From a bacterium (GTDB lineage: Bacteria; CLD3; SB21), in the NCBI GenBank assembly GCA_013360215.1, contig JABWCP010000050.1:1-8814 (forward strand): a stretch of 8,814 nucleotides of DNA, read 5' to 3'. The translations under genes and the position numbers were made by a program. The notes under the pieces are model-generated. The model was not told the origin of the DNA, did not search any database, and saw only the letters and a list, made by a program, of their open reading frames with translations. This document shows positions 335-8,222 of the stretch, piece by piece (the stretch's first letter is position 1; every line of letters begins with the position of its first letter).

Positions 335-736
335 TCAAATACTACCTCGGCATCGTTTTGCACCGCATCGGCAGCGAAGTTTGCCGTCGTGATGCGACTC
401 GACGTAATCGCAGGTGATCTCCTCTCCCATGCGAATCACACGCCGCGCATAAAATTCGACGTGATGACCGTAGACACGCATCCATGCATTAGGCGCACAG
501 CTGTGGTTGATCCGCGCAAAGGCATTGCCGTGATCAAAACCGTCTACGGCCCACCCGTCCGAAAATTCGACCAAAGCAATAGCTCCGCGTTGTTTAGCAC
601 GCCGACGGGCTTCACGTACCGTAATGATCGCGCCGGTCATTTCACCGATCTTACGACGTGCCGGTATTTTTTCATCGGCAAAAACACCCCGGCCGTGAAT
701 CGGGCTTTTTTTTATTTTGACTCGGTATCCGATCAC
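335..736 (-). CDS. SET-domain protein-lysine methyltransferase-like protein
   Basis: This is a compact bacterial SET protein of 133 residues when read from the GTG at 736. All hallmark motifs are present: SPIHGRGVFA near the N-terminus (11-20), the cofactor/knot motif NHSCAPN (77-83), GEEITCDY (104-111) with the catalytic-type Tyr111, and a post-SET CxCxxxxC (Cys122, Cys124, Cys129), which with Cys80 should bind one zinc. SET enzymes transfer methyl from S-adenosylmethionine to lysine side chains; the target here cannot be read from sequence. The GTG start overlaps the TGA of the upstream membrane-protein gene (GTGA, 733-736), a usual sign of translational coupling, and no good Shine-Dalgarno precedes it. 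A second in-frame GTG at 808 would give 157 residues. That version overlaps the upstream gene by 76 bp and adds an Arg-rich stretch that is not part of the SET fold, so I prefer 736. It is the last gene of the M1-membrane-SET unit. Confidence 0.87.
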   Translation of the reverse strand: MIGYRVKIKKSPIHGRGVFADEKIPARRKIGEMTGAIITVREARRRAKQRGAIALVEFSDGWAVDGFDHGNAFARINHSCAPNAWMRVYGHHVEFYARRVIRMGEEITCDYVESHHDGKLRCRCGAKRCRGSI

Positions 737-1581
737 GCCGTTTGTAATATATTTTCCTGCGACGAAACGACGCGCGGCGGCACGACGGTATAATGCAAAT
801 TTTTCCACAGCTCTGCCGGTGCCGCCAAAAACTGAATCCGCATCATTGCGCGGAAATATACAAATAGCTGATGCAAGACGATCATCATCAAAAGTTTTAG
901 TCCGTTATTCGCCACGAATCCGTTGTCCAAATATTTATACAGTGCGAAAACGGCCACAAACGCGATCCCATTGACGATATACAGCGCACTGATGTGATGC
1001 ACATGCTGCCAAACCCATTTCCATGACTGAAAATACATCCGCGTTACGGAATAGTGTGCATTATAGACGATACGAATTTTAGCAATATCTCCCGCCATGA
1101 TCGCCGTACCGGAGAGTATCACCGTAATAATCCAGCCGTATTCATACGTGGGAATGAGTGCTATGCCGATCATAACAAATACCGCATTCCACAAGAATAA
1201 CCGGAAAAAACGACCGAAGTATTTACCGCAATTATGCCAAAAAAGGTTTTGTTCATTTGGGTGTATAAGCGCCGCAACAATACCGCCTGTCAAAAAAATC
1301 ATGAGTATAAGCGAGGCGATCGCCGCTCCGCCAAATACCGACGAAATAATCGTACCCGCCGAAGGCTGATCAATCATCATGTCAAATAAGTAGTTAAGTT
1401 CAAAATCATTTTTCCACAGCGAAGGAACTTCTGTGCGTCCGAAGTACTGCCCCATCGTGCGGTACGCCATAACGTATCCGGGTATCGCCGTAATCAAAGT
1501 AGTAAACCACAGTATGATCGCCATACGGCGGTTATTCCATGTTGCATGCCAAGCGCTGAAATAGATATGTGTAAGTTTCAT
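733..1581 (-). CDS. unrecognised polytopic inner-membrane protein
   Basis: I do not recognise this 282-residue protein. About six hydrophobic segments are visible, near residues 20-41, 77-105, 124-146, 150-165, 197-215 and 227-243. A polar loop (about 42-70) follows the first, and a hydrophilic C-terminal tail (about 254-282) ends the protein. There is no cleavable signal peptide. The short start MKLTHIYFSAWHATWNNRR is aromatic and basic, which would keep the N-terminus in the cytoplasm. Further basic/aromatic clusters occur between segments (for example FGRFFRLFLW near 122-131 and MYFQSWKWVWQHVHH near 182-196). No catalytic motif, Walker box or transporter signature is visible. The gene begins 12 bp after the M1 peptidase stop with a strong AAGGAG site, and its TGA overlaps the SET start. 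It is therefore almost certainly expressed with both, and a structural or partner role for the exported peptidase is a reasonable guess but no more. Confidence 0.83.
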   Translation of the reverse strand: MKLTHIYFSAWHATWNNRRMAIILWFTTLITAIPGYVMAYRTMGQYFGRTEVPSLWKNDFELNYLFDMMIDQPSAGTIISSVFGGAAIASLILMIFLTGGIVAALIHPNEQNLFWHNCGKYFGRFFRLFLWNAVFVMIGIALIPTYEYGWIITVILSGTAIMAGDIAKIRIVYNAHYSVTRMYFQSWKWVWQHVHHISALYIVNGIAFVAVFALYKYLDNGFVANNGLKLLMMIVLHQLFVYFRAMMRIQFLAAPAELWKNLHYTVVPPRVVSSQENILQTA

Positions 1582-5758: not shown

Positions 5759-5768
5759 TGCCCGCCTT

Positions 5769-5851
5769 GCCGAGGTGGTGAAATGGCAGACACGCTAGTT
5801 TCAGGTACTAGTGCCCGCAAGGGCGTGGGGGTTCAACTCCCCCCTTCGGCA
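5769..5851 (+). tRNA. tRNA-Leu (anticodon CAG)
   Basis: A full class II tRNA cloverleaf can be folded by hand. The acceptor is GCCGAGG (5769-5775) with CTTCGGC (5844-5850), including one G-U pair. The D-stem is GTG/CAC (5778-5780 with 5791-5793). The anticodon stem is CTAGT/ACTAG (5795-5799 with 5807-5811), with loop TTCAGGT and anticodon CAG at 5802-5804. A long variable arm closes as TGCCC-GCAA-GGGCG (5812-5825), and the T-arm is GGGGG-TTCAACT-CCCCC (5827-5843). The discriminator is A at 5851. The long variable arm and anticodon identify leucine, reading CUG codons. The genome continues CCC after the discriminator, so the 3' CCA is not fully encoded and must be completed by the CCA-adding enzyme. 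The gene has its own promoter and terminator. Confidence 0.96.
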
Positions 5852-5854
5852 CCC

Positions 5855-5884
5855 AATCCCGCAAACCCATTGCGGGATTTTTTT
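5855..5884 (+). terminator. intrinsic terminator of tRNA-Leu
   Basis: A perfect 10-bp stem (AATCCCGCAA at 5855-5864 with TTGCGGGATT at 5870-5879) with a 5-nt loop (ACCCA) runs into seven T residues (5878-5884). It ends one base before the stop codon of the convergent gene. Read from the minus strand the hairpin has no U-run after it, so it should stop only rightward transcription. Confidence 0.88.
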
Positions 5885-5885
5885 A

Positions 5886-8222
5886 TTACCAAAATTTCCA
5901 ACCTGCCGTAAATACGAGACCAAACTGCAACGCCACCGAATACGCCCATTTGTCTCGCCCGTATCCTTTATAAGCAAAAAAATTCACGCCGGGATTAAAA
6001 TAAAAATTCTTAAACCGCTCTATGGCGATAAGAGATGACCAGTTGAACCGCAAAGAACGCGTATTGGATGACGCGCTGTCGGCTTCGGCCACACTTTTTT
6101 TCTTTTTGGCTTTGGTAAAAAAATAGATGAATTCAAATTCAGAAAAATTACCATAGTTCCCGCGTGTATTGGAAAATAGCGAATGCACACCGACACCAAA
6201 ATTGCCGATTCGTCGTTCATTACCCTCGATCCGGGTTAGATGGACGAGCCCGACGCGGTTTTCGGAAAAATTCCAAAAATCCGAAAACGCCGCCCCGGTA
6301 TGAATGTATAAATCTTTCTTTCGCGGGCCCTGATCGGCCGTAAATTCGGATTGAAATTTAGACGCCGCATAAGGATATACGGCTACCGAACTTACGATAG
6401 GCTGTTCGATGAGCGGCAAAGCCACGAGACTTTCGACGGACCAGTTATCATCCGATTCGCGGTAAGGATCATTACCCAACTTGATGCGGCCGTACTCCGA
6501 TTTAATATAGTTTTCTATAATGAGGTCGCGCGTCCAGCGGGTCAGTTTCATATCAAGCGAGGAGGAAACCGCTACTTTTTCTTCGCCTTGCAATTCGTTG
6601 ATGGAGTAGTCTTTATACAGAGCATCATTCTTTTTTGTTTTATTCTCCGCTTGGAAACCGATCTTGCGCATCGTCATAAACCACACCGGATGATCAAATC
6701 TTCGTGGTATATTCCGGTCTTTGTTTTCGATCAGGTATTCGATAAATGTCTTTCGTATCGGCAGCAGCTTTCCTTCGGCCTGTTGACGCCATCCGTCTTT
6801 GGTGAGCGCAAAATGTTCCTGTTTACGCGTGCCGCGTAAAAATTCGTTATACCCGTCGCCGCCGTTGGCCAAAAAATTGGAAGTGACCACCGTGTAAAAT
6901 TGATCAGCTAACACCGCACGCCCGTGCACATTGAAGCCATCCGTTTTGCCCGTCGAATTAACCGCCTTGAGATGTACAAAACGATCGTTGTATTTGGTGC
7001 GGCTCTCATCGCTGCGTTTTATGATTTTGAGAATATCCTCGCCTTTGATGCGGAGTGTGACAATATCGTTTTCGATCCAAAATATGCGCTCAAAATCCCG
7101 TACCGTCAGGGTGTCCGTTTGTACGGCATTGGCGATATAATTATCAAAATCAAAAAAGCGGTCATTGATCACGGCGATCTCCGCATTCGCTTTAAAAAGC
7201 ATCATCGCCATCATATAATCGCGCAGATCTTTATTGCCCATCCAATTCTTTTTTAAAATAGAAGACGACGGGCCCAATCCATACGCGGTTTCACAGTGTT
7301 CGGCATAGGCCAGTTCCACTTCTTCTTCAAACGCCGCCTGCATCGCCGGATCCACGTAAATCGTTTCGGAGGCCAGTTCGATCACTTCGACGCTCTGCAC
7401 ATCATGTATTTTGCGATCTTGCACTTCCATCGTAATGTGCGGTATGTTGCGGCCAAATTTATCCACCGAAAACACAAACGTCTCAAAACGATCACTAACG
7501 CGTACCGAACTAAAACGATCCGGTGCGATATAGCTGGATTTACCGATAATCACGTTGATTTCTGGAAATTCGCGTGCAAAATCATTGTTCTCTTCTTCCG
7601 AAAGATGCGTCAAAAGAACAATGGCATCCGATTGTTCGCGCACTTCGTCTATATACACACGGATCGCCGCACTGGGATCGGCAATGATAATGCCGGCCAT
7701 TTTTTCCTCAAGTACACTTTGTGTTATTGCCGGATCCGTCACGCCGATAATACCAACGCGCAGCCCGGCTTTTTCGACGATCTTATACGGCTGCAAATAC
7801 GGCAGTGAGTCCGCGCCTAAAACATTGGCGCCGAGAATGGACGGATACGAAGGGTCATCCACATACGCTTTGAGCACATCTTTTCCAAAATCAAATTCGT
7901 GATTACCCACCACCATCGCGTCATAGCCGATATCCCGCATTTTATCCAAAACAATGCGACCGTGCGAAGCCGTCGTCAAATAATAATACCCCAGCGCATC
8001 GCCGGTATCGAAAAGGAGCATATTCTGACGACCATAAGCCGATTGGAGCTGGTTTATCGCAGCCTGACGTTCCAGTATCCCGCCCGATTTGCCAAATTCG
8101 ACATTCTCTTCAAAAAGATAACCTTTGGTATCACCGGTAGCGACAATGTGCAGACTCTGCGTGATGGCGGGATGATGCGCGCCATAGAGTAAAAGGCATA
8201 TACAAAAAAATATAGTCTTCAT
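5886..8222 (-). CDS. 5'-nucleotidase-like protein with altered metal site fused to a C-terminal beta-barrel-like domain
   Basis: This 778-residue protein has three parts after a signal peptide (about 1-22). Residues about 23-265 form a metallophosphatase domain of the UshA/5'-nucleotidase type, with GD75 in DTGDALG, GNHEFDFG (106-113, holding the catalytic-type His108 and Asp111) and His206 in LTHLS. Two conserved sites differ. The usual DxH reads D31-T-K33, and the usual GHxH/GHxQ reads G227-K-S-S230. Judged against UshA, three of seven metal ligands are therefore lost. Residues about 300-500 are the nucleotidase C-terminal (substrate-binding) domain, with NFLANGGDGYNEF at 449-461 intact. 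Residues about 540-778 are beta-rich, with alternating hydrophobic residues, and end in LVFTAGWKFW. A terminal aromatic of this kind is typical of outer-membrane barrels, and this part loosely recalls the Bacteroidetes barrel family DUF3078. A lysine-rich loop lies at 704-709. The gene follows the M16 gene by 33 bp, with no clear Shine-Dalgarno. Hydrolase activity is uncertain; nucleotide binding at the envelope is plausible. Confidence 0.85.
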   Translation of the reverse strand: MKTIFFCICLLLYGAHHPAITQSLHIVATGDTKGYLFEENVEFGKSGGILERQAAINQLQSAYGRQNMLLFDTGDALGYYYLTTASHGRIVLDKMRDIGYDAMVVGNHEFDFGKDVLKAYVDDPSYPSILGANVLGADSLPYLQPYKIVEKAGLRVGIIGVTDPAITQSVLEEKMAGIIIADPSAAIRVYIDEVREQSDAIVLLTHLSEEENNDFAREFPEINVIIGKSSYIAPDRFSSVRVSDRFETFVFSVDKFGRNIPHITMEVQDRKIHDVQSVEVIELASETIYVDPAMQAAFEEEVELAYAEHCETAYGLGPSSSILKKNWMGNKDLRDYMMAMMLFKANAEIAVINDRFFDFDNYIANAVQTDTLTVRDFERIFWIENDIVTLRIKGEDILKIIKRSDESRTKYNDRFVHLKAVNSTGKTDGFNVHGRAVLADQFYTVVTSNFLANGGDGYNEFLRGTRKQEHFALTKDGWRQQAEGKLLPIRKTFIEYLIENKDRNIPRRFDHPVWFMTMRKIGFQAENKTKKNDALYKDYSINELQGEEKVAVSSSLDMKLTRWTRDLIIENYIKSEYGRIKLGNDPYRESDDNWSVESLVALPLIEQPIVSSVAVYPYAASKFQSEFTADQGPRKKDLYIHTGAAFSDFWNFSENRVGLVHLTRIEGNERRIGNFGVGVHSLFSNTRGNYGNFSEFEFIYFFTKAKKKKSVAEADSASSNTRSLRFNWSSLIAIERFKNFYFNPGVNFFAYKGYGRDKWAYSVALQFGLVFTAGWKFW

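Follow-up and report, generated by a model that had tools for sequence, protein, structure and literature searches.

The window analysed here, a stretch of 8,814 bases, contains a gene that appears to join a nucleotidase to an outer-membrane barrel, and this raises the question of what such a protein might do. The original prediction took the barrel to hold the nucleotidase domain in the periplasm or, in an autotransporter-like arrangement, at the cell surface. Positions 5886-8222 form a single unbroken open reading frame of 778 amino acids, which is read on the minus strand (8222 to 5886). The frame had been predicted at these positions without a strand and is real; stop codons are present across the region in the plus-strand frame read. 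Signal peptide, metallophosphatase-like part, 5'-nucleotidase C-terminal domain (5_nucleotid_C) and the GGDGY signature were all found as described before, and so was the C-terminal AGWKFW, with tryptophan as the last residue. According to the model and the alignment, the signal peptide is followed by the nucleotidase fold, about 10 residues and the first strand of the barrel, which itself lacks a confident model (Table 1).

Table 1. Features of the fusion gene and of the adjacent gene, given in positions of the window
Feature	Position	Strand	Basis
Whole gene, nucleotidase-like domain and barrel, 778 aa	5886..8222	-	Open reading frame; homologs with the same architecture
Predicted signal peptide, about residues 1-21	8160..8222	-	MKTIFFCICLLLYGAHHPAIT, hydrophobic N-terminus
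Metallophosphatase-like domain, about residues 22-310, degenerate catalytic site	7293..8159	-	AlphaFold2 model, VIA match, motif loss
D31-T-K33, replacing metal motif DxH	8124..8132	-	Alignments with canonical relatives and controls
H206, kept His at metal-ligand position (D75 and N107 kept too)	7605..7607	-	Alignments with relatives
G227-K-S229-S-Y231, replacing GGHxH, both His lost	7530..7544	-	Alignments with canonical relatives and controls
5'-nucleotidase C-terminal (substrate-binding) domain, about residues 311-505, Pfam core 333-460	6708..7292	-	PF02872, model
GGDGY, residues 454-458, kept substrate-domain signature	6849..6863	-	Alignments with relatives
Short linker, residues ~506-512	6687..6707	-	End of the nucleotidase fold at ~505-510; conserved W514 at the barrel start
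Outer-membrane-barrel-type domain, residues 513-778, ~12 predicted strands	5889..6686	-	DUF3078/DUF481 matches, hhalign, alternation
DUF3078-matching stretch, residues 546-603	6414..6587	-	PF11276
AGWKFW C-terminus, beta-signal-like end of the last strand	5889..5906	-	Sequence; WKF/WKW-like ends in many relatives
M16 peptidase fragment, cut by the contig end	8256..8780	-	PF05193, E 1.9e-16

The M16 peptidase fragment lies 33 bp upstream of the fusion gene on the same strand and is a possible operon partner. Just beyond the 3' end of the fusion gene, a tRNA-Leu (CAG) is located at 5768-5855 (+), and a terminator-like hairpin comes next (5855-5879). At the other end of the window, a SET-domain open reading frame (335-808, minus strand, E 7.6e-19), here in a bacterial genome, adjoins a DsrE-like open reading frame at 2-322.

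Residues 22-505 form a complete two-domain fold of the UshA/CD73 type, as judged from an AlphaFold model together with the sequence. The 5_nucleotid_C family (PF02872) matches above the Pfam cut-off (E 2.6e-11). The Metallophos match at residues 25-144 (E 0.045) stays below the cut-off, which is a clue in itself because metal ligands are missing. The full-length AlphaFold2 model is good to about residue 502, with pLDDT values mostly between 70 and 97 across the metallophosphatase-like domain. The alignment behind this model consists of canonical nucleotidases, which biases the result toward their fold; the nucleotidase-type fold is already indicated by the sequence alone, apart from the model. 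In the VIA comparison, residues 22-510 of the model matched the Thermus 5'-nucleotidase 2z1a with a Z of 32.6 and an rmsd of 3.9 over 451 aligned residues, CD73 and UshA structures reached a Z of 30-32, and SoxB was also among the matches. The match list spans only residues ~19-579, and the fold of the barrel is outside its reach. The PDB sequence matches are confined to the first ~470 residues and are all nucleotidase-superfamily proteins, and none of the NCBIfam models, including those for nucleotidases, reaches its own cut-off with the window protein. The protein is therefore similar to the UshA/CD73/NadN superfamily (Metallophos plus 5_nucleotid_C) in its two-domain fold (Z about 30-33), its 5_nucleotid_C match and its GGDGY. 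Unlike these enzymes, it lacks the metal-ligand histidines and the substrate arginine and carries an additional, predicted membrane barrel.

The C-terminal ~265 residues are of beta type. DUF3078 (PF11276) had been guessed as a related barrel family, and the hhalign and Pfam results bear this out and add DUF481 (PF04338) as a second one. The window protein matches PF11276 with 20.6 bits (E 6e-4) as a whole protein and with 24.6 bits as barrel alone, either way below the Pfam gathering cut-off of 25 bits. In hhalign, the barrels of 27 fusion proteins aligned with 22 standalone DUF3078 proteins at a probability of 99.1% (E 4.3e-19) over 231 columns. Searched singly against Pfam, 11 of the 27 fusion barrels match DUF3078 and 9 match DUF481; the window protein is without a DUF481 match. 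Among the standalone relatives, DUF3078 was found in 22/22, DUF481 in 14/22 and OMP_b-brl in 4/22. A barrel profile made from the window protein and two relatives of its class retrieves standalone DUF3078 proteins, with a best E of 2.6e-5 among 4177 open reading frames. DUF481 proteins are classified as transporter family 1.B.75, putative outer-membrane barrels of 277 amino acids with 12 strands (PMC4827864). PG1786, a DUF3078 protein of Porphyromonas gingivalis, appears among the outer-membrane proteins listed in PMC9722745 and was detected in outer-membrane vesicles of this organism (PMC4335976). In Bacteroidetes, proteins of both families occur together with type IX secretion (PMC5053529). 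Unlike the fusion proteins, DUF481 proteins are standalone. Standalone DUF3078 copies (~290 amino acids) are present in the same genomes as the fusion proteins; they start with the barrel and the motif NFSQ..W..GGE, whereas the fusion lacks this motif and has a 480-residue domain in front of the barrel.

For the family as a whole, the strand pattern points in the same direction. Hydrophobic/polar alternation in the profile of the 27 barrels is 0.96, compared to 0.585 +/- 0.059 in shuffled profiles, none of which (0/2000) was as high, and the nucleotidase part shows no excess. About 12 alternation peaks can be recognized in the family profile, the strands being counted by eye. For single sequences the median z of the alternation is 3.4 in fusion barrels and 3.55 in standalone DUF3078 proteins, against 1.5 in a soluble, beta-rich M1 peptidase used as a control. 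The window barrel by itself has a z of 0.3, which is not significant, so the barrel claim rests on the relatives and on homology rather than on this one sequence. It is very unlikely that the C-terminal part is a soluble beta domain which is not embedded in the membrane. Such a domain would fit the low confidence of the models (pLDDT 28.7 for the single-sequence AlphaFold prediction of the barrel, and under 40 past residue 510 of the full-length model) and the PDB sequence searches, where the barrel, the fusion-barrel profile and the DUF3078 profile gave nothing significant, and amphipathic alternation is found in soluble sheets too. However, neither the homology to two outer-membrane families nor the much lower z of the soluble control agrees with it.

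The fusion is a genuine one and has been conserved in several phyla. The family comprises 27 proteins from five phylum-level groups, 24 of them with at least 600 amino acids and 22 with a full nucleotidase part. The contig is short, which might suggest a chance fusion or an assembly error in this particular genome; this was ruled out by the recurrence of the architecture in the five groups as one clade. Full or partial members occur in three of nine genomes of the window's own class, in three further phyla, those of G035, G069 and G168, in 1/17, 6/82 and more than 12 of 64 genomes, respectively, and in two of 347 sampled genomes in that of G106. In a tree with 17 canonical proteins, these are separated from the nucleotidase parts of 22 fusion proteins by a branch with a support of 100/99, the tree being rooted only via the choice of outgroup. 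One origin followed by spread or loss is the simplest reading of this tree. The members are very divergent, with about 15-30% identity, and the family looks like an old one, judging by its spread, in full-length or eroded form, over five or more bacterial phyla. DUF3078 matches are present in all genomes of the window's class, mostly as a strong match to a standalone copy of ~290 amino acids. Of 395 sampled Bacteroidota genomes, 173 have a match to the barrel profile; all matches listed are short open reading frames of at most 435 amino acids, and no nucleotidase-barrel fusion was seen among them. No relatives were found in the viral contigs searched, and the defence library gave no match. Plasmid records contain no match covering 80% of the query; those listed are nucleotidases ending near residue 476.

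No conserved gene neighbourhood across phyla was seen in the neighbourhoods of relatives that were read. In two same-class genomes (L102/L103, in G007 and G008), a shortened relative immediately follows a PIG-L-type deacetylase-like gene, so called on the basis of its sequence, and this neighbour occurs only there among the neighbourhoods read. Downstream of the G035 member, a 418-amino-acid open reading frame (L151, 2626-3882, plus strand) looks exported and is rich in threonine and lysine. A second metallophosphatase-only protein of ~310 amino acids was found at G000:C13:21558-22205 (L002), with a CDC motif and GAHDQ replacing GHxH. Similar copies are present in genomes of the same family (L008, L011, L014), and these proteins are a small lineage of their own whose metal motifs are altered. 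Another protein of G007 (L123, 400-2265, plus strand; 622 amino acids) has a non-nucleotidase N-terminus followed by a C-terminal stretch with weak similarity to DUF3078 (E 8e-4); the barrel may thus also occur in combination with other periplasmic domains.

What found no support is that the barrel holds a working enzyme, since all nucleotidase-bearing relatives found have a broken catalytic metal site. In an alignment with 33 canonical relatives, D31, G74-D75, N107-H108 and H206 are still present in the window protein, and K33, S229 and Y231 stand at metal-ligand positions, each replacing a histidine. Both GHxH positions are histidine in nearly all of the 33 relatives; position 33 is less informative, being tyrosine in some of them. 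D358 replaces the substrate arginine of NxGxxR. Not one of the 22 nucleotidase-bearing family members has a histidine at either GHxH position, while all 18 canonical controls have both, and the histidine of DxH is absent from all 22 members compared to its presence in 15 of the 17 controls having a residue there. The NxGxxR arginine was found in 18/18 controls and 15/22 members. H206 is retained by 18 of the 22 members and each of D31, D75 and N107 by 15; the G168/G829/G830 branch has lost all four as well. The GGDGY of the substrate domain is kept in most members. The proteins of the same-class relatives G007 and G008 lack most of the metallophosphatase part. Their middle part matches the family weakly (hhalign 41%, E 2.7e-4), and the homology of their N-terminal part to the family is tentative.

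As the four residues D31, D75, N107 and H206 are kept in the window protein and most of the clade, one metal could still bind. This would suit a barrel-anchored phosphohydrolase with altered chemistry, using one metal (held by D31, D75, N107, H108 and H206) or a different substrate. The substrate arginine kept in two thirds of the members is in line with such an enzyme, and SoxB, which acts on a substrate other than a nucleotide, is among the fold matches. We nevertheless regard it as unlikely: the two GHxH histidines are missing throughout, one branch lacks the four remaining residues too, the window protein itself has an aspartate for the arginine, and G007 and G008 dispense with most of the metallophosphatase part. 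From its sequence, the protein is best read as an outer-membrane-anchored pseudo-nucleotidase, a putative module for binding or sensing seated on a barrel, and not as a tethered enzyme.

On which side of the membrane the nucleotidase-like domain is located has to be judged from the layout. In an even-stranded barrel both termini lie in the periplasm. The linker of only about 10 residues leaves little room for threading a 480-residue domain to the outside, and both observations favour the periplasmic side, so the domain is probably periplasmic. The barrel could instead display the nucleotidase-like domain on the cell surface, where it would be a passenger or a receptor. Signal peptide, large passenger-like N-terminal domain and C-terminal barrel of ~12 strands do follow the order of type V secretion as in classical (type Va) autotransporters, and the relatives CD73 and Nt5e work at cell surfaces. 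Classical autotransporters, however, have a helical linker of tens of residues threaded through the barrel, which is longer than the roughly 10 residues estimated here from model and alignment. Moreover, an Autotransporter Pfam match was absent from all 27 fusion barrels even at E 1, the homology being to DUF3078 and DUF481 instead, and display at the surface is thus distinctly improbable.

Taken together, we favour, with a probability of roughly 60%, an exported UshA/CD73-like fold on a DUF3078/DUF481-type outer-membrane barrel of ~12 strands, acting on the periplasmic side as a putative non-catalytic module for binding, regulation or scaffolding. The barrel would sit in the outer membrane, with the nucleotidase-like part kept below it in the periplasm. 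Hydrolysis of nucleotides would have been lost, and the old substrate cleft, or the surface of the domain, may have been reused for binding of a putative ligand. The small barrel would anchor a module that binds a ligand, regulates or serves as a scaffold. A bolder version, in which a family of outer-membrane pores in several phyla is gated or instructed by the fused dead nucleotidase sensing nucleotides or related ligands, as a ligand-responsive channel or surface receptor, is a long shot.

A nucleotidase paired with DUF3078 or with any other barrel was not found in the open-access literature searched. The fusion apparently brings together known parts in a conserved, catalytically degraded combination undescribed so far, and no described class of outer-membrane barrels with a large fused pseudoenzyme was found for the nucleotidase fold. 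Because the proteins form one clade over five phyla, in which the metal site is broken throughout while the signature of the substrate domain is retained, the sequences suggest a selected non-catalytic role in the cell envelope. Naming these genes 5'-nucleotidases in annotations is better avoided. The fused version may point to a ligand, and in this way could help to reveal the role of the standalone DUF3078 and DUF481 barrels.
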